Assembly (NCBI RefSeq): GCF_013036045.1
Contig: NZ_WTPX01000015.1
Coordinates: 1 to 55,093 of the forward strand
Reading direction: 5' to 3'
Length of the DNA stretch: 55,093 bases
Source of the DNA: Alienimonas chondri
GTDB taxonomy: Bacteria > Planctomycetota > Planctomycetia > Planctomycetales > Planctomycetaceae
Shown here one piece after another: positions 16,956-36,923 of the stretch. Within the stretch, counting starts at the first letter, position 1. Each line of letters begins with the position of its first letter. The notes below the pieces were generated by a model. The model was given only the letters and a program-made list of their open reading frames with translations, had not been told where the DNA came from and did not search any database. A program made the position numbers and the translations under genes.

Positions 16956-18803
16956 CTACCCACGAATCAGTCGGAAGGTCTTGAGATCCAGGAAGGCGTC
17001 CAGCGCCGCCCGCGGATGGGGCGGGCCGGTCACGGGGCCGACGGGCGAGGCGAGGACGGCGTCGTAGACCGCTCGCAGACGTTCGCCGCTGCCGGCGAGG
17101 CTGTAGCGGTCTCGCACCACCGCCGCGTTCGCCTGCACGATGCCGTCGGTCGGGCGACCGGGGTCGGTCTCGATGCTCCGCACTTCCCCGCGGGCGGCGG
17201 GGTCGTCGGCGATGCGGCGAATCACGGCGAATTGCAGTTCTTCATCGAGGTCCGCGAAGTCGATCCGCCCCCCGTCGGTCTTCGCCGCCAGCGCCTCGGC
17301 GAACGCCGACTCGTTCCAAGGTCGGCGGTAATCCTTAAGCAGTCGTTCGCAGCCGGCTCGGAACCGCTCTTCAAACCCGGTTCCGTCCTCCGCGATCGCC
17401 CAGTCGAGCGGGACCGTCAACGCTTCGTACAGTCCGGGAAGCTCCAGTCCTTCCGCTTTGAAATCGGCGGTGACGTGCGGCAGGTCGCGGCCCATCAACG
17501 GGCGACCGGCCAGCCACGCTTCGAGGAACACCATTCCGAAGCCCTCCGCGACGCTGGTCGTGAGGATCGCGTCCGCGGCGGCGAGGTTCTGGTGAAAGCT
17601 CAGCCCGTCCTCCTCCCCGACCCCGAACAGCACCGGCAGATCGAGTTCTTCCGCGAATGCCTTCCATCGGTCGTGATAGGCCAACTCCGCCGGGTTGCGG
17701 GGGATCAACGTCACGCCGGCCCGCTGATCGGGGTGCCCCATCGTCAGCAGGATCGTCTCGCCGAGGTTCTTCCGCCGGATGCCGCGGACGGGGTACACGA
17801 GGTAGCCCTCGTCGTCGCAGACTCCCAGCGTCGCCCGCAAGGCGGAGCGAGCCTCCTGCCGATCGGGCAGCGGGGGGAAGTCGCCCACGGGGTTCGGCAG
17901 GAAGTGCAGCCGCTCCTCCGGCACGCCCAGCGATCGCAGCACGCCCCGATCCCGGCCGTTTAAGACGGCGTAATGAATCTGCGACGCCTGCGGATAAAGC
18001 ACGGCGTCTTCGCCCAGCGCCCCGACGAGGTGCAGATAATTCGCCGGGCGGAACTCCTCCGCGAAGTCGTGCAGTTGCAGCAATAACTTCCAGCCGCGTT
18101 CGGCCAGCAGCGCCACGGCGCCCGGCAGCGAGACGTTCTTGCCGAGGGCGTGGTTGTGGATGTGCAGAACGGTCTCGTCCCGCGTCGCCTGATGGTCCGC
18201 GAGGGCGGTCTCGATGCGGTCGGCCAGACGGTCCGGCTCCGGGGAACCGTCGCCGGGGTTCAGATCGTCGTAGTCCAGCCCCGCCACGACCGGTCGGGGG
18301 GCGCGGACGCCTTCGTGTTCCAGCGTGTGTTCGTGTTCGTCCCACGCCTCGGCTCGACCGCCCGTGAGCAGCACGGCCCAGGGCGGATTGATCTGGTTCG
18401 CCCGGAGAGCCAACAGATGATTCGCCACCACCCGGGTCACCCCGCCGCGGTTCAGGTGGTAATGGGCGATCGCCGCCGCCGGCGGAGTTCGATCGGCCGG
18501 GGGGGGCGTCGCGTCGTCTGGAAATTCGATCTTTAATCGCCCATCAGATCGGTTCGCCACGTCGGAGAGAACGTCCACATAAACGCCCAGATCGCCTTCG
18601 GCCCGCAGCCGGGGCAATGCGTCGTGACGCAAGATCAGCGGCCGGTCCGCGTCCGCGACGAATGCGGAAAACGCGTCCGCGAACGCATCCCAATTCAAGG
18701 CGTGCAGCCCCGGCAGATCGATCGCCTCGGCGAACGACCGCAGAAAACCCGCCTTTGTCCCATCGCCGGGGGGCACGTTCACGATTCGGACCGACTCGCT
18801 CAC
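16956..18803 (-). CDS. barstar-like domain fused to GT4 glycosyltransferase
   Basis: The 615-residue protein has two parts. Residues about 4-95 match the barstar fold: a first strand (VRIVNVP), then DLPGLHALNWDAFADAFSAF, where N37, D39 and D43 align with barstar N33, D35 and D39. D39 of barstar is the main contact to the RNase active site; barstar Y29 and W38 are replaced. A proline-rich linker (about 97-108) leads to a GT-B enzyme with HYHLNRGGVTRVVANHLL and the E-x7-E motif in SVAEGFGMVFLEAW. The GTG start (18803) overlaps the TGA stop of the RNase gene by four bases (GTGA), implying translational coupling. The likely role is to bind the RNase before export; the sugar substrate of the GT is unknown. 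Confidence 0.78.
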   Translation of the reverse strand: MSESVRIVNVPPGDGTKAGFLRSFAEAIDLPGLHALNWDAFADAFSAFVADADRPLILRHDALPRLRAEGDLGVYVDVLSDVANRSDGRLKIEFPDDATPPPADRTPPAAAIAHYHLNRGGVTRVVANHLLALRANQINPPWAVLLTGGRAEAWDEHEHTLEHEGVRAPRPVVAGLDYDDLNPGDGSPEPDRLADRIETALADHQATRDETVLHIHNHALGKNVSLPGAVALLAERGWKLLLQLHDFAEEFRPANYLHLVGALGEDAVLYPQASQIHYAVLNGRDRGVLRSLGVPEERLHFLPNPVGDFPPLPDRQEARSALRATLGVCDDEGYLVYPVRGIRRKNLGETILLTMGHPDQRAGVTLIPRNPAELAYHDRWKAFAEELDLPVLFGVGEEDGLSFHQNLAAADAILTTSVAEGFGMVFLEAWLAGRPLMGRDLPHVTADFKAEGLELPGLYEALTVPLDWAIAEDGTGFEERFRAGCERLLKDYRRPWNESAFAEALAAKTDGGRIDFADLDEELQFAVIRRIADDPAARGEVRSIETDPGRPTDGIVQANAAVVRDRYSLAGSGERLRAVYDAVLASPVGPVTGPPHPRAALDAFLDLKTFRLIRG

Positions 18804-19732
18804 GGCTTCACCACGGCCCGGAAGCTGTCGTAGTGGTCCGGCGTGTACCAGATGTCGCCGCCCCGACCGATCACCAACCGCTGCGGGCCGGGACCGCTGA
18901 CGCCCTTCGTCGGGTGGACAAATTCCTTGTAGTACCCGTTCGGCTGCCGAGGGAGACGCCCCTCGCGATTGCCGAAGGTCGAACCGTCGTTGTGATGCGG
19001 AAACTTCTTGCCGAGCGCGATGCGTTCGAGCGTCGCGGAGAGGTCCAGCACGCCGTCCTCCGTGGCGGCGGGGACGGGCTGACCGAAGTCCTCGACGGTG
19101 ACGTTCTCGACGTAGGGATCGACCACGATCGGCGTACACCGCGGCGGACGGCGGACGTCCGCGACGCGCGTCGCTTCGGCCGTTTGAACCGTGGCGTCAT
19201 CGACGCAGTTCGTCTTCAGCGTCTCCCCGCCCCGCAACCGTTCCGCGAGCACGAGGCCGTTCCCGTCGACGCGGGTGAGCACGGCGTTGGGGTCCAGATC
19301 GACCGTCGCCTCGCCGGCGCGCGTGCGAAACGAAACGGTGACGACCGCATAGGTGCGACGCGGGGTCTCCGGCGTCGAGTCTGCGGCGGGAACGGTCGGC
19401 GCAGTCCTTTCTCGCGTCAAAGCCTGCGGATCGGGGCCGAAGTCGTCCGTCGCCGGCGGCATCGCCGGGTCGCTGCTCGGAAGAGAGGGAGTCCCCACGT
19501 CCTCACCGAACGTTTCGTCCGGGTCGAACCGCTCCTCCGGGCCGACGGACGACGCCACGATCGACGTATCCCCCGGTCCGGCCGGCGTGGGCGAATCGAG
19601 GAGATATCGATCGGCGAGATAGACCACCCCCAGCAGCAACGCGATCAACACCCACCCCCGCACGCCCAGGCGGGCGAGGTGACGGATCGCATCCAGCGTG
19701 GCCGGCGAGGCGGCAGATTTGTTCGGGCTCAT
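18800..19732 (-). CDS. membrane-anchored guanyl-specific ribonuclease (barnase/RNase Sa-like)
   Basis: The 310-residue protein has one membrane helix (about 24-45) preceded by Arg residues, so the C-terminus should face outside the cytoplasm. A Pro/Asp-rich linker runs to about 130, and a small beta-rich region of unknown type covers about 130-220. Residues about 228-310 match the RNase N1/T1 family: FPHHNDGSTFGNREGRLP holds the guanine-recognition N255-R256-E257. E270 (YYKEF) is the general base, R285 (QRLVIG) and H300 (PDHYDSF) complete the site, and the R285-H300 spacing equals that of barnase R87-H102. The downstream gene begins with a barstar-like inhibitor domain. All catalytic residues look intact, so an active RNase is likely. 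Confidence 0.86.
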   Translation of the reverse strand: MSPNKSAASPATLDAIRHLARLGVRGWVLIALLLGVVYLADRYLLDSPTPAGPGDTSIVASSVGPEERFDPDETFGEDVGTPSLPSSDPAMPPATDDFGPDPQALTRERTAPTVPAADSTPETPRRTYAVVTVSFRTRAGEATVDLDPNAVLTRVDGNGLVLAERLRGGETLKTNCVDDATVQTAEATRVADVRRPPRCTPIVVDPYVENVTVEDFGQPVPAATEDGVLDLSATLERIALGKKFPHHNDGSTFGNREGRLPRQPNGYYKEFVHPTKGVSGPGPQRLVIGRGGDIWYTPDHYDSFRAVVKP

Positions 19733-25845: not shown

Positions 25846-27249
25846 TTAGTCGTTCCGGTCCCCCCGACGCGGCCTCTTCCGATCGTTCTCCCCCTCAGAC
25901 TTCTCATAGTCTTGGGGCAGCTCGGCGACCCAGGCGCGAGTCTGCTTTGTCAGCTCCCTCGCGACGTCCGGGTGCGACTCGACGAGGTTGGCGCTCTCCG
26001 AGGGGTCGACCGAGAGGTCGTAGAGCTGGACCCCGCCGTCGCGTTTCCGGCCGAGGTGCAGTTTCCAACGGCCGTCGCGGACGGCCGGACCGCTGTTGGG
26101 CGAGCTGGTCTTCCAGTACAGCGGCTTGGTGCGGTCGCGGGTCTCGCCGAACCACGCGGCGGAGATGTCCTCCCCGTCCAGGCGCTCGGGCAGTTCGTCC
26201 ACCCCGGCGATCGCGGCCAAGGTGGGCATCCAGTCGATGAATGAGCCGACGTTGTCTTGATCCACCCTTCCGGCCGGTACGCGGCCGGGCCAGCGGACGA
26301 TGAACGGGACGCGGGTCCCGCCCTCGTACTGCGAGTGCTTGCCGCCGCGGAACGGGCCGGCGTAGCCGAGCATGTTCTTCGAGTACTCGCGGACCCCTTT
26401 GCCGCTGAGCGCCACCGGGGCGGGCCCGTGGTCGCTGGAGAACACGACGATCGTGTTCTCACTCAGGCCGAGTTCGTCGAGCGTATCGAGCACGCGGCCG
26501 ACGTTCCGGTCGATCTGGAGGACGTCGCCGAGGTACTGCCGCATCGACGCGTCGAGGTCCCCGTCGATCCGGGCGCTCTCGTCGAACTTGTGCTGCATCG
26601 CCTCCGAGAAGTCGTCGCGGTCGACCGTCACGTCTTCGAACTCGGCGACGAGCGGGTCGGGCGTGTTGACGGGGAAGTGGGTCGCGTGGCCCCAGACGTT
26701 GACGTAGAACGGGCCGTCCCGGTGGCTACGGATGAAGTCGATCGCCGCGGAGTAGAGGGCGTCGTCGCGGCCGTCGTCGTCGCGGGTCTTGCCGATCACC
26801 TCCACCGTGTCGAGCCCGTACGTCCCGTCGGCGTCGTCCGGCCCGATGTGCCACTTGCCGAAGTGGCCGGTCGCGTAGCCGCGATCCTTCAGCAGTTCCG
26901 TGATCGTGACGCGGTCGCCGAACCCGAAGTCGGCCGCGTACTTCGGGAACCGGGCGGGGAACAGCCCCGTCATCAGGCCCGTGCGGCTCGGGTTGCAGGT
27001 GACCCCGGTGACGTAAAACTGCTCGAACCGCGTCCCCTCGCTCGCCAGCCGGTCGATGGCGGGGGTCCGGGCGTATGGGTGCCCGTAGCAGGCGAGGTCG
27101 CCGTACCCGAGGTCGTCCGCGAACAGGAAGACGACGTTCGGCGGTCGGTCCGCGTCTGCGGCGGAGACGCCGCAGGGTGAGAGCAGCAGTCCGGCGAATA
27201 ACAGCGAAGTTCGCAGCGCCAGGCTCCGGACCGGGGGGAGGGGAATCAT
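25846..27249 (-). CDS. secreted sulfatase (FGly type)
   Basis: The 467-residue sulfatase has an N-terminal signal peptide (about 1-30). The metal-binding start is NVVFLFADDLGYGD, the formylglycine signature is C85-N-P-S-R, and the second conserved Gly-Lys-Trp-His motif is GHFGKWHIG. SSDHGP carries the later metal ligands. Cys85 would be converted to formylglycine by a maturation enzyme not encoded in this window. An upstream in-frame extension is rich in Arg/Pro and unlike protein, so ATG 27249 is chosen. The glycan substrate is unknown. Its 5' side is a block of pseudogenes. Confidence 0.9.
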   Translation of the reverse strand: MIPLPPVRSLALRTSLLFAGLLLSPCGVSAADADRPPNVVFLFADDLGYGDLACYGHPYARTPAIDRLASEGTRFEQFYVTGVTCNPSRTGLMTGLFPARFPKYAADFGFGDRVTITELLKDRGYATGHFGKWHIGPDDADGTYGLDTVEVIGKTRDDDGRDDALYSAAIDFIRSHRDGPFYVNVWGHATHFPVNTPDPLVAEFEDVTVDRDDFSEAMQHKFDESARIDGDLDASMRQYLGDVLQIDRNVGRVLDTLDELGLSENTIVVFSSDHGPAPVALSGKGVREYSKNMLGYAGPFRGGKHSQYEGGTRVPFIVRWPGRVPAGRVDQDNVGSFIDWMPTLAAIAGVDELPERLDGEDISAAWFGETRDRTKPLYWKTSSPNSGPAVRDGRWKLHLGRKRDGGVQLYDLSVDPSESANLVESHPDVARELTKQTRAWVAELPQDYEKSEGENDRKRPRRGDRND

Positions 27250-27353
27250 GGCGAGCGTTCTTCTGGAGTTTTGGGACGGGGGAAAGAGCGGCGCGACGGA
27301 GTTTTGGCCGCAGACCGCGGTCCGCGGGAATGTCGCCTCAAAGCGTTCGACAG

Positions 27354-27605
27354 GAACGTGTCCGCGGCGGCATCGCGGAAGCGGTCGGCGGGGGCGCTGG
27401 GGTCGTGCGTTTCCCCGATGAGGAAATGCAGCGACGGGTCGGTGGTGTCGAGGTGCGTCAGCGGGGAGGCGAGCCGGTAGGCCGCCGGCCTGTCCGCCTG
27501 CGTCCCGCCGAGGAACTGCCGCCAGATCGCCCGGCCGGGCAGCGCCGAAACCGCCGCCACGCGGTCGGACAACAGGTCGTTCCGGGCCCCCATTGGGGCG
27601 GCCGC
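27354..27605 (-). pseudogene. esterase remnant related to the esterase of the downstream sulfatase fusion
   Basis: About 84 codons read MGARNDLLSDRVAAVSALP, IWRQFLGGTQAD and a FLIGETHDPSAPADRFR tail. The stretch is clearly paralogous to the C-terminal esterase of the gene at 28235-30598 (MGAQTDLLSERVAAVSADE, IWRQFLGGSQAE, GERDDPSTRADRFR). The nucleophile region and both ends are missing. It is joined in frame to the glycoside hydrolase remnant, giving a chimeric open frame without a functional domain. Confidence 0.75.
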
Positions 27606-28105
27606 CTGCACGGCGAGGGCGTCGACCCACGGCAACATCTCCTGCACGACGACGTCCTCCAGCGTAATGAAGGCGAACCGGTCCCCGAAGACGAGGTGGT
27701 CGGGAGCGTACCGCCGGTTCGCTCCGCCGACGACGCGGAAGTACTCCCGGGCGATCCGCGGGAAAAACGCCCGGTCGCGAGCCGCGTCATCCCCGCCCTC
27801 CCACGTCTCCATGAACGTCTGATAGGCCCGGCGTCCGGGCGCGTCCGCGGCGGCCGTACCCGTAGGCGTTGAAGCTGAGGTCCTTGCAGGCCGCGGAGAG
27901 GGCGGCGTTGTCGAACGCCGCCCGTTTGGCGCCGACATGCGTGGCTCTGTGGGCGAAGAACGGCTCCCCGTCCCAGCCGATCAGCCAGTGGCGGCCGTCG
28001 ATTTTGGTGGGGGGCGACTTTCTGTCGCTCCCCCTCCCCGCCCGCCCCGGACGGGCCGGGCATGCACGGGGCGACGGCGACGACGGCAAGGAGGGCGAGC
28101 CGCAT
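27606..28105 (-). pseudogene. broken secreted glycoside hydrolase (agarase-like)
   Basis: Pieces of one gene lie in different frames. A signal-peptide-like start (MRLALLAVVAVAPCMPG) begins at 28105. After a shift come KIDGRHWLIGWDGEPFFAH (about 28020-27853), the usual 'D.RWWLV.PDG.PFF' opening of agarase-like enzymes. After another shift and a deletion come RIAREYFRVVGGANRRYAPDHLVFGDRF and EMLPWVDALAVQ (27827-27606), resembling their C-terminal barrel half. The catalytic middle is gone. It may once have supplied the glycanase of this sulfatase island. Confidence 0.6.
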
Positions 28106-28234: not shown

Positions 28235-30598
28235 ATGACGCGCACGCTCTTCACGCACCCCGGGCAGGCCCTTCGGCTCGGGATCGTCATGGGGTTGGTT
28301 GCTGGCGGGTGGGCGCCGAACGCGTCGGACGCGGACGCGGCCGAGCAGCCGAACGTGGTGCTGATCCTCGTCGACGATCAGGGGTACTACGATCTGGGCT
28401 GCTACGGGGCGACGGAGGTTCGCACGCCGCGGATCGATGCCCTGGCCGGCCAGGGCCTGCGGCTGACCGATTACTACGCCGCGGCTCCGATCTGCAGCCC
28501 CTCGCGGGCGGGGCTGCTGACCGGGTGCTATCCACGCCGGGTCGGCAATGCGACTTGGGTGCACCGGCCCGACTCCCCCTCCGGCCTGCACCCCGACGAA
28601 CGAACGCTCGCCGAGTTGTTCCACGAGAACGGCTACGCGACCGCCTGCGTGGGCAAATGGCACCTCGGGTTCCACGAGCCGTTCCTGCCCCGCAACCAGG
28701 GCTTCGATCACTACTACGGCCTGCTGCACAACCTCGACCGCTATGAAGCGGTTCATTTCGAAGAGGCCGGCGGCGTGCCGCTGCTCCGCAACGGCGAGGT
28801 CGTCGCCCGTCCGGCCGACCCGGCGACGCTCACGCGACTCTACACCGACGAGGCGATCGACTGGATCGAACGTCGCACGGCGGAGCGAGACGGCCAACCG
28901 TTCTTCCTCTACCTGCCGCACACGATGCTGCACAACCCGCTGGGCGTGGGGGAGGCGTTCCGCGGCCGCTCCGGGTGGGGAGAGTACGGCGACGCGATCG
29001 AGGAGCTGGACCATCACACCGGTCGGTTGCTCGACGCGCTGGACCGGCTGGGGATCGCGGACGAGACGGTCGTCGTCTTCACGTCGGACAACGGCCGCGG
29101 ACCCGGCCGCACGCCGGAGCAGCCGATCCGCGGGCGGAAGCTGTCCACGCTCGAGGGCGGCATTCGCGTGCCGGCGATCGTCCGCGGGCCCGGCGTGCCG
29201 GCGGGGCGGACCTCCGACGCGGTGATTCATGCGATGGACTGGTACCCCACGCTGGCGACGCTCGCCGGCATCGAGGTTCCCGCAGACCGCGTCATCGACG
29301 GTCGGGACGTCAGCCCGCTGTTGCTCGGCGAGAGCGACGCCGTGCCCGCGGCGGCGGCCTCGGAAGCGCTCAACGGTCGCGTCCCCCTCCGCCGTCGATG
29401 GGAGCCGTCGGCTGAATGGGCCGCGGACGTGCCGCGGAACCAGTACCTCGACGCCTTCTTCTATCACGGCAGCCAGGGGGCGCTGGCGGCGGTCCGCTGG
29501 CGGGACTGGAAGCTGACGCTCCACCCGGCGCCGCAGTTGTTCAACCTGCGAACCGACCCGGGGGAGACGGAACCGGTCCGCGACGGCGAGGTTCTCCGCA
29601 AACTGCGGGGCATGGCCGTGCTCTTCCAAGAAGAGATGCGGCTGGACGCCCGCCCCGCCGGTCGCGTCGAAGTTCGCCCTGCCGACGCCGGCGCCCGTCT
29701 CCCGCGGTCGTTGACGGACGACCTGCACGTCGAACGCGACGTGACCTACGTCCGCCGCGGCGACCGCACGCTGGAGATGGACCTGTTCCGCCCGAAGGAC
29801 GCCTGGGGAGCCCGACCGGCGATCGTGTGCGTGCACGGCGGCGGCTGGGCGAACGGAAGCCGCGCGAACCACGCCCCGCTGGCCCAGGCCCTCGCGGCTC
29901 GCGGGTACGTGACCGCCACGATCTCCTACCGCCTCAGCGGCGAGGCGCCCTTCCCCGCGGCGATCCACGATTGCAAGGCCGCCGTCCGATTTCTGCGGGC
30001 CAACGCCGGCCGATACGGCATCGATCCGGACCGCATTGGGGCGATCGGCCTGTCGGCCGGCGGGCATCTGGCGGCCCTGCTGGCGACCTCCGGCGAGGAC
30101 GGCGAACTGGCCGGCGCCGACGGGCTCGCCGGTCACAGCGATGCGATCCAAGTCGCCGTGGCGATGGGCGCCCAGACGGACCTGCTGTCTGAGCGGGTCG
30201 CGGCGGTCTCCGCGGACGAGAAACGCGGGGGGATCTGGCGGCAGTTTCTGGGCGGCAGTCAGGCCGAAGCCCGGGGGCGATACCGACTCGCTTCTCCGCT
30301 GGAGCGGCTCGACGCGGACGACCCGCCGGTCCTGTTCATCACCGGCGAGCGCGACGACCCCAGCACGCGGGCCGACCGCTTCCGGGCCCGGGCCGCGGAA
30401 CTGGGCATCGAAACGGATCTCGTCGTGCTCGACGGGGCGCCGCACCCGTTCCTCGGTCGGCAGGGCTGGTTCGACGAGGCCGTCGACGCCGCCGATCAAT
30501 TCTTCCGCCGCGCCTTCGACGAACCCGACGGTCCGACCGAGGCGACCCGTCCCCGTTCCCCGCACTCTCCGTCTTCCAGCGCCGAGCTTCCCGAATGA
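28235..30598 (+). CDS. bifunctional sulfatase-carbohydrate esterase fusion
   Basis: The 787-residue secreted protein has two catalytic domains. Residues about 38-480 are a sulfatase with NVVLILVDDQGYYDLGCYG, formylglycine signature C87-S-P-S-R, CVGKWHLG and TSDNGRG. Residues about 494-760 are an alpha/beta hydrolase of the BD-FAE/acetylxylan esterase type: oxyanion segment VHGGGWANG, nucleophile S607 in GLSAGGHLA, and H737 in DGAPHPFLG. It could remove sulfate and acyl groups from the same glycan. The start has alternatives (ATG 28199); ATG 28235 gives a better signal peptide. The next sulfatase gene overlaps its stop by ATGA. A remnant of a second copy of the esterase lies at 27354-27605. 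Confidence 0.85.
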   Translation: MTRTLFTHPGQALRLGIVMGLVAGGWAPNASDADAAEQPNVVLILVDDQGYYDLGCYGATEVRTPRIDALAGQGLRLTDYYAAAPICSPSRAGLLTGCYPRRVGNATWVHRPDSPSGLHPDERTLAELFHENGYATACVGKWHLGFHEPFLPRNQGFDHYYGLLHNLDRYEAVHFEEAGGVPLLRNGEVVARPADPATLTRLYTDEAIDWIERRTAERDGQPFFLYLPHTMLHNPLGVGEAFRGRSGWGEYGDAIEELDHHTGRLLDALDRLGIADETVVVFTSDNGRGPGRTPEQPIRGRKLSTLEGGIRVPAIVRGPGVPAGRTSDAVIHAMDWYPTLATLAGIEVPADRVIDGRDVSPLLLGESDAVPAAAASEALNGRVPLRRRWEPSAEWAADVPRNQYLDAFFYHGSQGALAAVRWRDWKLTLHPAPQLFNLRTDPGETEPVRDGEVLRKLRGMAVLFQEEMRLDARPAGRVEVRPADAGARLPRSLTDDLHVERDVTYVRRGDRTLEMDLFRPKDAWGARPAIVCVHGGGWANGSRANHAPLAQALAARGYVTATISYRLSGEAPFPAAIHDCKAAVRFLRANAGRYGIDPDRIGAIGLSAGGHLAALLATSGEDGELAGADGLAGHSDAIQVAVAMGAQTDLLSERVAAVSADEKRGGIWRQFLGGSQAEARGRYRLASPLERLDADDPPVLFITGERDDPSTRADRFRARAAELGIETDLVVLDGAPHPFLGRQGWFDEAVDAADQFFRRAFDEPDGPTEATRPRSPHSPSSSAELPE

Positions 30599-32028
30599 AC
30601 GCCCTCGCCCCGCTGCTCCTGCTCGCGGCCTGCGGCCCGGCGTTCGCCGGGGATGCCGGCACAGCGGCCCGACCGAACGTCGTGCTGATCTACGTGGACG
30701 ACCTCGGGTACGGGGAACTCGGGTGCTACGGCTGCCCAGACATTCCCACGCCCCACGTCGACCGCCTGGCCGCCGAGGGCGTGCGGTTCACGGCCTCCTA
30801 CATCACCAACCCGCCCTGCTGCCCGAGCCGGTGCAGCCTGATGATCGGTCAGTACGCCCAGCGGTTCGGCAAGTACGGCATGTCCCGCGGGCTGCCGATC
30901 CCGAAGGACCAGCCGACGCTCGCCCGGCGCCTCGCCGACCACGGGTACGCGACCGGGCAGATCGGGAAATGGGATCTCGGGTCGAAACGGCAGAATTCGC
31001 TGGACGTCGGCTTCGCGGAGGTCGCCCGCACGCCGCCGAAGAAGCGGTATTCGGAGGCCGAGATCGCCGCGATGCCGGTCCCGTTGCGGCGGAAGATCGA
31101 GTCGCAGGGCGGCCGGTCCAAGTACTTCTGCCTCGACGCCGACGGCCGGGAGCGGTGGCTGACCGACTACGACGGCGACCTGATGGTCGAATTCGTGGAC
31201 CGGCACGCCGACGAGCCGTTCTTCCTGTACTGGTCCCCGGATGCGGTGCATTCCTTTACCGACGAGACGCCGGAGCGGTTGCGCGACCGCACGACCGCGA
31301 CCGGCAAGCGACGGGCCCTCGCCGGGTCGATCGTGTCGGTGGACGACCAGGTCGGCAAACTGCTCGCCGCCCTGGATCGCCGCGGGCTGCGGGAGAATAC
31401 GCTGGTGATCTTCTCCAGCGACAACGGGGCGAATCCAGCCGAGGGCGGCCGATCCGCCCCCTATGCGGGCGGTAAGGGCGCCGGCACGCAGAAGGAGGGC
31501 TGGGTGCGGGTGCCGACGGTCCTGTCCCTGCCCGGCGTGATCCCGGAGGGAGCCACGCATGACGGACTGATCGCCAACTTCGACCTTTATTCGACGGTCT
31601 CGCAGCTGACGACCGGCGAGATCCCGCCGCACTGCGACGGCGTGGACCTGATCGCTCAGGTCCGCGGCGAGCGGCCCGGCCCGGCCCACAAGCACCTGTT
31701 CTGGCGGAACGACCAGCCGGACGACGCCCCGCGGCGGCACCTGCTCGCGGTGCGGTGGGAGGACTGGAGGCTGTACCGTCAACGCGCCGCCGACCCCTGG
31801 CAGCTGTTCGATCTGTCCGCCGACCCGCGGGAGGAGACGGACCTCGCCGCCGAGCGGCCGGACCTCGTGACCCGCCTCGCCGAGCGACACGCCGCCTGGT
31901 CCGCGACGCTCGCCCCGCTGGCGACGGTTCCGAACCTCCCCGGCCCGTCGACGGCCGTCGGCCCCGGTCACGGCTGGGCGACCGCCGCCGACTCCGGACC
32001 TGCCGGCCGCCGCCCCGCCGGCCGCTGA
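30595..32028 (+). CDS. secreted sulfatase
   Basis: The 477-residue sulfatase has a signal peptide cut near residue 19 (AFAGD), metal motif [19 protein letters not shown] and formylglycine signature C75-C-P-S-R. A second-motif variant reads [11 protein letters not shown], with Asp where His is usual after KW, and FSSDNGANP holds the later metal site. The ATG overlaps the stop of the fusion gene (ATGA at 30595-30598), indicating translational coupling; the third sulfatase follows 49 nt later. Substrate unknown. The KWDLG variant may indicate a different substrate class. Confidence 0.9.
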
Positions 32029-32077: not shown

Positions 32078-33673
32078 ATGAAGAGCCCGATCGGCAGCCG
32101 CCGTCTTCTCGCGACCGTCCTGCTTGGCGTCGCCGCCCTCCCGGCCGCGGCGGCCGATCCCGACCCGGCCGACGACCGCCGGCCGAACGTGGTGTTCCTC
32201 GCGGTGGACGACATGAACGACTACGCCGGCTTCCTGGAGTCGGCCCCGCGGGCGGTCACGCCGAACCTCGACCGGCTGGCGGCCCGCGGGGTGAACTTCA
32301 CCAACGCCCACACCGCCGGGGTGTATTGCGCCCCCAGCCGGGCGGCGATCTTCTCCGGCCAGTTCGCCTCGACGACCGGCTGCTACACTTCGGCGGAGTA
32401 CTTCGTCCATCGGCCGGAGATCGAACCGCTGCAGGTCAGCTTCGACAAAGCCGGCTACCGGACGCTCGGGGCCGGCAAGCTGTTCCACCACCCGGCCGGG
32501 GCGATCGACATCCGCGGCTGGGACGAGTTCTTTCTGCGGACCGACCGCCAGCGGCAGTCCGGCTGGCCGCTGGACTCCTGGGCGGAGCCGTCGCCGCTGC
32601 CCGACCCGTTCCCGAACAGCGTCTACAACGCCGACCGCGAGATCACCGGCGGGCTGTTCCTCGAATGGGCCGCCCTTCCGAACGACCGCGAAGGGGAGAT
32701 GGCCGACACCCAGCGGGTCGACTGGGCCGTGGAGACGCTCCGCGACGGGCTGCCGGAGGACGCCGACGCGCCCTTCTTCCTGGGCGTCGGTCTCTACGCC
32801 CCGCACTACCCGAACTACTGCCCCCAAAAGTACTTCGACCTGTACGACCGCGACGCGATCGAGTTGCCGCCCGTCCTCCCCGGCGACCGCGACGACCTAC
32901 CGCCGAAGATCCAACGGGCGATGAGGAACCGGGTCCGCATCTCGCAGCGTGTGGACGAACTGGATGCGCTGCGGGACGCGCTCCACGGCTACCTGGCCTG
33001 CATCAGCTACGCCGACGCCCAACTCGGCCGCATCCTCGACGCCGTTGCCGCCCGCGGCGATGCGGAGAATACAGTCGTCGTGTTGTGGAGCGACCACGGC
33101 TACCACCACGGTCAGAAGGGCCAGTGGGGCAAGCACACGCTGTGGGAGCGGACCTCGAACGTGCCGTTCGTCTGGGCCGGACCGGGCGTCGCCGCCGGGA
33201 CGGAGGTCGACGCGACCGTCAGCCTGATCGACCTGTATCCCACGCTGGTCGATCTGTGCGGCCTGCCGGCCCCGCGGCAGACGTTGGAGGGGCAATCGTT
33301 GGCGTCGGTTCTGGCCGACCCCGCCGAGGCGGAGGACCGCCGGGTCTTCCTGCCGGACGTGACGCCCGGCGAATACGCCGTCATCACCCGGGACTGGCGT
33401 TACATCCGCCGCGACGACGGCGAGGAGCTTTACGACCTCTCCGCCGACCCGCACGAATGGCGAAACCTCGCCGGCGACCCGGCCCGCGAGTCCGTGAAGG
33501 AGCGCCTGCGGGCGCGGGCTCCCGAGACCTTCGCGGCGCCGAACCCAAAGCTCAACGCCCGCCGGGATCTTGTCGTCGAAGGCGACCGCTTCCGCTGGGA
33601 GAAGGGCGAGGGCAACGCCCCGCCGGCCCGCAAAGCCAACGATCGGTCAGTCGGCGACGCCCGCGGCCGGTGA
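32078..33673 (+). CDS. secreted sulfatase, iduronate-2-sulfatase-like
   Basis: The 531-residue protein has a signal peptide (about 1-26). [16 protein letters not shown] is the early metal motif of the iduronate-2-sulfatase/choline-sulfatase-like group, the signature is C84-A-P-S-R, and a GAGKLFHH segment takes the place of [22 protein letters not shown] and [22 protein letters not shown] are typical for this group. It is the last plus-strand gene of the sulfatase row; its 3' end overlaps the convergent DUF6807 gene by 27 nt. The C-terminal tail after about residue 490 is charged and of low complexity. Confidence 0.9.
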
Positions 33674-34760: not shown

Positions 34761-36923
34761 TCACCTCCCCGGCCGCGTCCGCTTCGGCCGTCGCTCCTTC
34801 GCCCGCAGGTCGAGAACTTCGGGCATCGGGGTCGCGGCGACCGCGCGGGACGGCAGCTTCGACCGCATGTCTTCCACGACCGCGGCGAACGCCGGGTCGT
34901 CGATGCGGTTCGTCCACTCCCGCGGGTCGGAGGCCGTGTAGAACTCCTCCTCCCCGTCGCGGTAGCGGACGTAGCGGCCGCGTTCGTCGCGGAGCGTCAG
35001 GTAGGCGACGTACGGCTCGTCCGGTCCGCCCCTCTGCGTCAGCCCGGTGATCGCCGTGCTCTCCCACGCCGCGTCCGGGTCGTGCAACAAGGGCGTCAGC
35101 GACCGGCCGTCGACCGGCGTCGGCGGCGTCAGGTCGCACAACTCGGCCAGCGTCGGGTAGAGGTCCTGCAGCGAGACGAACCGTTCGCACACCGCCCCCT
35201 CCGGCGTGACGCCGGGGACGCGGATCGTCAGCAGCACGTGCGTGGCCTCTTCCCACAGCGTCGCCTTCTGCCAGTGGTGTTTCTCCCCGAGGTGGAACCC
35301 GTGATCCGTCAGAAAGACGACGATCGTGTCGTCCCGGTGGGGGCTCTCCTCCAAGGCGTCGAGCACCCGACCGAACTGAGCGTCGGCGAAGGTGGTCGTC
35401 GCCAGATAGGCTTGAACGGCCTCCCGGTGGAGGTCGGCTTCCAGCACCGCGTCCACGAACTTGCCTTTGCCCTCCGTCAACTGGAGAGCGGACGCCGGCA
35501 CGTCGTCCAGATCGTCCGGCGGCAACTCCGGTAGGACGATTTCGTCCAGCGGGTAGAGGTCGAAGTACTCCTGCGGAACGTACCAGGGCATGTGCGGGTT
35601 GAACGTTCCGTAGGCGATGAAGAACGGTTCGTCACGGTCCTCCCGTAGCGCGGCGATCGCCCGGTCGGCGTTGCCGGTGTCGTTCATCTCGGCCTCGGTC
35701 AGGTGGATCGGTCCCCAGTCCTGCTCGCCGCGGCCGACGGCGGTGAGCGGCGCCCCCGGCGGCGCCGGGTCCCGCTTGTGGCCGACCTTCACGTCCCAGC
35801 CCTCCTTCTGGTCCCAGCCGTGGGTGATCTTGCCGAACCCGGCGGTCGCGTAGCCCGCCTGCTTGAACAGCGAGGCAAGGGAGGTGGCGGCCCGCAGCGG
35901 CTCGCTCTCCCCGGCCCCGGGAAGGTTGTGGTAGTGCCCCGACCGCCACGGGGCGACGCCGGAGAAGAAGGCGCTCCGCGAGGGCGAACAGACCGGCGCC
36001 GCCGCGTAGGCCCGCTCAAAGTTCACCCCGCTCGCCGCCAGCTTTTTCAGGTTCGGGGCGACGACCTTGCCGGCGTAGCGGTCCGGGTCTTCGAGGATCC
36101 AGCTGTTCAGATCGTCGGCGACGAGGAACAGGACGTTCCTCCGTTTCTCTCTCGACGCCGCGGCCTCCTCCTCGGGAGCGGCGCTTTCGGCGGCGGCCGC
36201 GGGCGGCGACGGCCGTTCGGCGGAGAGGCGGCGGACGCGGAGGTTCCGGAACGAGACGTGCCGGACGCGCTCCGGCTCTTTGACGGCGTGCACCTGCAAC
36301 CCGATCACGCCGTTCGGGTAGGTCTTGTTTAGTTCGTCGTCGAACGTCACATCCGTGACAGGCTCGTCATTGATCCAGGTCCGGACCCGCTTGCCGTCGG
36401 CGAGGACCCGGACGCGGTTCCATTCCCCATTCTTCATGTGGCCGTGGCGGACGAGGTCCTCCGCCGGGGTGAACCAGCGGCCGTTCCCCTGCCCGAAGAT
36501 ATGGCCCGAGCGTCCCGGCGATCGGCCGAGGTCCACCTGCGGCCCGTGCACGCTCCGACGCGACGTGCCGTTCTCCCTCAGCCGCGTGAGTTGCGTGCGG
36601 AATTGCACGCCGGAGTTGAGGTCCGTGTCGTGCAGCTTCACGTCGAATTCCAGTTCGAAGTCGGCGTACTCCTCCTCCGTGAACAGGAAGTGCGTTTTCC
36701 CGGTGCTCGCGCCGACGATGGCGCCGTCCTCCACGGAGAACTTCGCGTCCTGGTCCGAGGCGTTCCAGCCGTTGAGGGTCTCGCCGTCGAACAGTTCCCG
36801 CCACTCCCCCCCGGACGCGGCGGGCGTTCCCCCCGCAAACAGGGCCGCGCACAGGAGGAACGCCGCGCCGGCGGACCAGGACGGGATCGCCGTGAGGCGG
36901 CGTGAGAAACGGGAATGCGTCAT
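34761..36923 (-). CDS. DUF1080-sulfatase fusion protein
   Basis: The 720-residue protein has a signal peptide (about 1-37). Residues about 38-232 form a DUF1080 domain ([57 protein letters not shown], closing [13 protein letters not shown]). An Ala/Glu-rich linker (about 236-260) leads to a sulfatase of the iduronate-2-sulfatase-like group (about 262-700) with [13 protein letters not shown], formylglycine signature C312-[12 protein letters not shown] and [17 protein letters not shown]1080 proteins cleave or bind 3-keto glycosides. With the adjacent exported Gfo/Idh enzyme, which could form 3-keto sugars, this suggests oxidative-eliminative breakdown of a sulfated glycan. Confidence 0.88.

Follow-up and report, generated by a model that had tools for sequence, protein, structure and literature searches.

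Bacteria of the planctomycete and verrucomicrobial phyla carry very many sulfatases, whose targets are obscure. In the available portion of a study of two Porphyra-associated planctomycetes, many of the sulfatase genes are reported to encode multi-domain proteins, including some with esterase/lipase domains (Kim et al. 2016, PMC4807772). Fusions of sulfatases with glycoside hydrolases are discussed in the portion available of PMC6388578, and the corresponding part of PMC9096561 describes one two-enzyme protein, 6hr5, as serving a single algal glycan, ulvan. The gene analysed here, P0001, encodes a sulfatase joined to an esterase and lies in a window of 55,093 nucleotides (the whole stretch of DNA analysed) on an Alienimonas chondri contig. 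Its parts, in window coordinates, are:

28235..30598, plus strand: sulfatase–esterase fusion gene P0001, 787 residues
28235..28342, plus strand: probable export signal, residues 1–36
28349..29272, plus strand: Sulfatase domain (PF00884), residues 39–346; the sulfatase part continues to about residues 476–480
28493..28507, plus strand: formylglycine motif C87-S-P-S-R91
29675..29710, plus strand: junction, residues 481–492
29711..30529, plus strand: esterase part, residues 493–765, with BD-FAE at 515–708
30053..30055, plus strand: S607, predicted nucleophile, within GLSAGG
30353..30355, plus strand: D707, predicted triad acid
30443..30445, plus strand: H737, predicted triad base

The open frame runs from an ATG at 28235 to a TGA at 30596–30598, and its 787 residues do hold, as a preliminary description had claimed, a complete sulfatase and a complete serine esterase (S607, H737). 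The Pfam Sulfatase profile matches residues 39–346 over its whole length (1–301 of 301, 1.1e-57) with 196.1 bits against a cut-off of 25, marking it as an S1-type sulfatase, and residues 87–91, CSPSR, fit the S1 motif C/S-x-P/A-x-R. The profile of the alpha/beta-hydrolase esterase BD-FAE (PF20434) matches residues 515–708 (1–201 of 215, 2.4e-45) with 155.1 bits against a cut-off of 26.8; we call the esterase complete because this profile match is accompanied by a fold match across residues 493–763. The same description had both hydrolases in a secreted protein, and P0001 is probably exported: its N-terminus, judged by eye, has a hydrophobic stretch and the sequence ADA-AEQ, and the predicted structure places a low-confidence helix (residues 9–24) within this probable signal. 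Third-position G+C stays at 0.80–0.93 per 60-codon block as far as residue 780, unbroken across the junction.

The fusion architecture is unusually well conserved. A scan of public genomes returned 185 relatives, of which the best 80 loci were kept; by record title nearly all are Planctomycetota, Verrucomicrobiota or subgroups of these, accompanied by one Lentisphaeraceae bin, a few unnamed bacteria and one Acidiferrobacteraceae bin with the sulfatase only. Classified at >40% identity, 61 of the 80 loci have both halves in one frame, some of them truncated inside the esterase where the contig ends; one (L062) has two separate frames, one (L083) has a contig that ends just past the sulfatase, and 17 have the sulfatase without a P0001-type esterase. 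By record title the fused loci span three phyla, represented by Planctomycetota, Verrucomicrobiota and the Lentisphaeraceae bin. The 37 other aligned fusions are 53–69% identical to P0001, the most distant being that of the Lentisphaeraceae bin (BLAST, 54% over 727 columns), and relatives of the fusion occur, by record title, in Rhodopirellula europaea 6C, Stieleria tagensis and Roseiconus nitratireducens. Within the class, the esterase is present in 34 of 397 genomes (E 1e-75 or better), the sulfatase in 36 (1e-130 or better) and the two joined in 26, places being matched by hand; in one further genome (G343) each part lies at the end of a separate contig. Neither half reaches these limits in the other genome of the genus Alienimonas.

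Such independent fusions refute one explanation of P0001, that a faulty assembly or a lost stop codon merged two genes. Errors and decay do occur in the family, as seen in L062, split in two frames, and in L126, which is missing most of its sulfatase half. However, the 61 one-frame loci include isolates, and single-contig genomes (G083, G118 and G360) are fused too, so that the P0001 frame is neither a product of chance nor an assembly error; we regard a merger of this kind as almost certainly wrong. Among 72,556 plasmid records, none had one place covering 80% of P0001. A joined match in two pieces was seen on the Halomontanus rarus plasmid NZ_CP119798.1 (47431–49602, minus strand; 34% identity, 75% of the query), spanning features annotated as sulfatase-like hydrolase/transferase and as alpha/beta hydrolase; it may be a parallel in which the two are unfused.

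Both halves seem to be maintained for their catalytic function, because their key residues are invariant, their dN/dS is low and the genome has FGE-family genes. P0001 was aligned with 37 rows, those left when 59 rows with a usable start and both ends were thinned at 82% identity. In all 38 fusions the sulfatase residues D47, D48, C87, R91, K141, H143, H229, D285, N286 and K302 are invariant, as are S607, D707, H737 and the oxyanion loop HGGG (534–537) of the esterase; motif position 89 is P in 34 fusions and A in 4. BD-FAE esterases have a Ser-Asp-His triad and an HGGG oxyanion loop, and both are found in P0001 (S607, D707, H737; H534–G537). We take the catalytic roles of the invariant residues to be those familiar from the two families. 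Across 63 close overlapping pairs, which share sequences and hence are non-independent and none of which includes P0001, dN/dS is 0.04–0.14 for the sulfatase half and 0.02–0.17 for the esterase half, indicating that both are under purifying selection in the family. The FGE-type genes of A. chondri comprise five PF03781-matching stretches on four contigs.

The reading that we favour, at about even chances, is that P0001 is an exported bifunctional enzyme that takes sulfate and a short acyl group off one extracellular glycan, together with a partner sulfatase. Cys87 would be oxidised to formylglycine, enabling the N-terminal half to remove sulfate; the C-terminal half would remove a short acyl group through the triad Ser607-Asp707-His737; and both would act on the same extracellular sulfated, O-acylated glycan, on which one decoration perhaps masks the other. 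The separate sulfatase at 32078–33673 would work alongside. What the sequences show is the anatomy of P0001, its conservation, the selection in the family and the partner association; the activity, acetyl as the acyl group, the shared substrate and the fixed geometry are inferred. That a glycan with sulfate and acyl groups is one substrate, as first proposed, is plausible, with indirect support from the conserved fusion and the recurring partner sulfatase; the available part of PMC12872454 reports a fucoidan bearing sulfate and showing acetyl signals that are unassigned.

The acyl group is most likely acetyl. Feruloyl, the other group named at the outset, drew its one support from the name of the Pfam family, in which we take 'FAE' to mean feruloyl/ferulic acid esterase, and among 60 listed PDB sequence matches of the esterase half none is a feruloyl esterase by name. 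In fold searches with the model, the esterase part aligns with carbohydrate esterase 6xyc (Z 34.3, 261 aligned, 1.9 Å), and its best folds are the gut carbohydrate esterase 6xyc/6tkx (Z 34) and the GH43–CE protein 6mly (Z 32). NCBIfam esterase models all score under their cut-offs against this half. The sulfatase part aligns with carrageenan sulfatase 6bia (Z 33.1, 372 aligned, 3.0 Å), in a tie at Z 31–33 among carrageenan sulfatases, arylsulfatase A, steryl-sulfatase, GALNS and others; several S1 subfamilies score alike, and two specific models fall far below threshold (choline-sulfatase TIGR03417, 108.4 against 433.45; arylsulfatase PRK13759, 131 against 481).

That the sulfatase half lies no nearer to glycan sulfatases than to steryl- and cerebroside-sulfatases weakens the favoured reading and raises the alternative that the target is not a polysaccharide but a small molecule, for instance a lipid with sulfate and acyl groups. 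The best PDB sequence matches of the sulfatase half include steryl-sulfatase, arylsulfatase A and GALNS, hormone-sensitive-lipase-type models match the esterase half below their cut-off, and glycoside hydrolases are absent from the 25 neighbour families listed of 65. Yet the carrageenan sulfatase fold scores about equally, and the best folds of the esterase half are carbohydrate esterases; we regard a lipid target as improbable, yet as a rival to be taken seriously.

The gene neighbourhood supplies the partner. Three further sulfatase genes, recognised by Pfam, flank the fusion:

25846..27249, minus strand: divergent (fourth) sulfatase, ATG at 27249
30595..32028, plus strand: second sulfatase, its ATG overlapping the TGA of the fusion (ATGA)
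32078..33673, plus strand: partner (third) sulfatase

Given the ATGA overlap, the second sulfatase is probably translated together with the fusion; its relatives adjoin the fusion in two other loci (L026 and L039, 48–49% identity), and a 75% relative of the divergent sulfatase is the second gene past the fusion in L036. It is the third that recurs, near fused and solo esterases alike. Counted at a limit of 45% over 250 residues, its relatives (60–68% identity) are present in 9 of 59 fused public loci, being unseen within the flank examined in the other 50, and are absent from all 17 sulfatase-only loci. Genomes G152 and G385 also have them in their fused loci, and they adjoin the solo esterases of G022 and G308 and the half-deleted fusion of G275.

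The partner is present in 30 of 394 genomes at 1e-140 or better, and 23 of these 30 have the esterase as well, compared with 34 of all 397 (Fisher p 5e-23, uncorrected for kinship and for sulfatase-rich genomes; the sets of 397 and 394 were drawn separately and may differ by a few). Esterase and partner are at most 10 kb apart in 10 of the 23 (G000, G022, G108, G152, G213, G266, G275, G302, G308 and G385). Solo esterases have the partner within 10 kb in four of six cases (G022, G266, G302 and G308; not G079 or G257), and the partner is present in three of the nine sulfatase-only genomes. This pattern suggests that the esterase and the recurring partner sulfatase form a small shared pathway. 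The best solved relative of the partner is 6hhm, described in the available part of PMC9096561 as an S1_7 endo-xylose-2-sulfatase of ulvan; because choline sulfatases and iduronate sulfatase match too, this likeness leaves the substrate of the partner unfixed.

Less can be read from the remaining neighbours. Flanking frames were clustered, and 76 near neighbours, hand-picked from 190 listed at 59 loci, were scanned against Pfam. The commonest families were Sulfatase (22, related models included) and DUF1501 (11), with planctomycete cytochrome proteins and some other hydrolases among the other products; no glycoside hydrolase or glycan-specific enzyme appeared among the 25 families listed of 65. 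We accordingly set aside the neighbourhood as a guide to the substrate, and with it the earlier idea that the fusion gives a clue to the substrate of the island. Upstream of the fusion, 27246–27938 (minus strand) is a decayed scrap in which about 92 residues, without the part holding the catalytic serine, are 57–62% identical to the esterase half of P0001 or of other species. A recent duplication of the esterase half of P0001 is an unlikely source, as the scrap shares 57–59% identity with P0001 and as much as 62% with other species. Ahead of it is a piece with a weak resemblance to beta-agarases (E 0.06), the sole hint of agar, which we rejected as the substrate; PF17992 has no match in the A. 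chondri genome and none in any control either, which makes that search uninformative. Elsewhere in the window, 34761–36923 (minus strand) encodes another fusion, of a 3-keto-disaccharide hydrolase domain with a sulfatase (720 residues), and 16956–19139 (minus strand) is a frame of 727 residues with a weak Barstar match at 128–197 (4.6e-06) and unusual codon composition.

The pairing of the two halves is not obligatory, because either occurs in genomes without the other: when one set of hits is subtracted from the other, 9 of the 397 genomes are left with only the sulfatase and 7 with only the esterase. Among the nine, a contig edge ends the sequence in three (G294, G381 and G396), another tail is present in two (G221 and G296) and the sulfatase is apparently solo in four (G062, G070, G288 and G375). 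Among the seven, a contig end cuts two (G327 and G366), four have an apparently solo esterase (G022, G079, G257 and G308), and in G275 (L126) the sulfatase half is mostly deleted. The clear cases thus number six sulfatase-only genomes, two of these six having another tail, and four esterase-only; G266 and G302 have a fusion and a solo esterase together. In the shrunken sulfatase half of L126 (1468–2682, minus strand) the motif arginine is lost, and the esterase half seems intact. The members with another tail are:

L100 5650–8142, plus strand (G221): related sulfatase with another tail
L164 4806–7109, plus strand (G296): related sulfatase with another tail

In both, a tail of about 255 residues replaces the esterase. 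The L100 tail itself gave no Pfam match and no credible PDB match; it is likely trypsin-like, because its stand-alone relatives (45% and 37% identity) match Trypsin_2 over the cut-off. In the sulfatase tree a starred branch sets the clade apart, with fused and solo members intermixed inside, and in the esterase tree some solo esterases fall among the fused ones and others outside them. Mapped on the trees, the fused state switches 10 times for the sulfatase (at least 2 of these by starred branches) and 9 times for the esterase (at least 6), the latter figure being inflated because rows L062, L120, L122 and L126, broken by contig ends or decay, are set apart from the fused ones and L154 was entered twice; both trees have long branches, above all in the outgroup of the sulfatase tree. 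The two trees neither show nor exclude a single origin of the fusion.

Separability of this kind, like the lack of a glycoside hydrolase among the 25 neighbour families listed of 65, weakens the favoured reading. It would suit a protein whose halves are both active on different substrates, or on parts of a mixed food, and are fused for joint expression and export only, with a C-terminal partner that the probable trypsin-like tails show to be exchangeable. We think this unlikely, if worth keeping in mind, since two observations speak against it. First, the stretch separating the positions of residues 480 and 493 keeps to 10–14 residues in 73 fused rows (identical cores were removed; partial copies of one gene may persist). 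Second, the esterase, fused or solo, is often near the same other sulfatase.

The junction usually reads RPAG, a few variable residues and then D(G)RTEIP or alike, the second motif being one from which P0001 deviates. The solo esterase of G022 (L012) has its own export-type signal and then DGRT, so that the fusion would join the end of one enzyme to the apparent mature start of the other. Junction length, taken by itself, suggests that the two domains are held in a fixed arrangement and are not freely tethered; in the AlphaFold model of P0001 (mean pLDDT 79.8, pTM 0.62) their relative placing is uncertain, given the pTM. A bolder version of the favoured reading, which we offer tentatively, makes the fusion an old, rigid tool that strips two decorations and is common to Planctomycetota, Verrucomicrobiota and Lentisphaerota, acting together with one specific second sulfatase on an acetylated sulfated marine glycan; deacylation would then expose the sulfate, or the reverse.

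For sulfatases with obscure targets, a sulfatase–esterase family with a recurring second sulfatase narrows the candidates to substrates possibly carrying both decorations. The fusion and its partner make a short list of enzymes for joint testing, and relatives in named strains make the work practicable.

Among known proteins, the C-terminal half of P0001 shares its fold and a detectable sequence similarity (26–27% identity) with 6xyc/6tkx and 6mly. The last is a comparable two-enzyme protein with such an esterase, but there the esterase is joined to a glycoside hydrolase and not to a sulfatase; no PDB chain listed combines, by name or by match, a sulfatase with such an esterase. The sulfatase half is alike in fold and motif to PfS1_19A (6bia/6b0j) and to human ARSA, STS and GALNS (labelled S1_1, S1_3 and S1_5, respectively, in the available parts of PMC5066984 and PMC9096561), at 31–38% identity and to several subfamilies equally. 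The rhamnosidase protein of Formosa agariphila (6hr5, P36_S1_25) also has a sulfatase module in a two-enzyme protein; it differs in its partner, a rhamnosidase, in its sulfatase subfamily, S1_25, and in being 27% identical to P0001. In the literature searched, mostly non-subscription papers, we found no description of the sulfatase–esterase fusion family. The proteins of Kim et al. 2016 (PMC4807772), as described in the portion available, are of the same kind as P0001, an esterase/lipase domain in a planctomycete sulfatase, a likeness drawn from description. Planctomycete sulfatases bearing esterase/lipase domains were thus already known, and what is new is the conserved fusion family and its partner gene.
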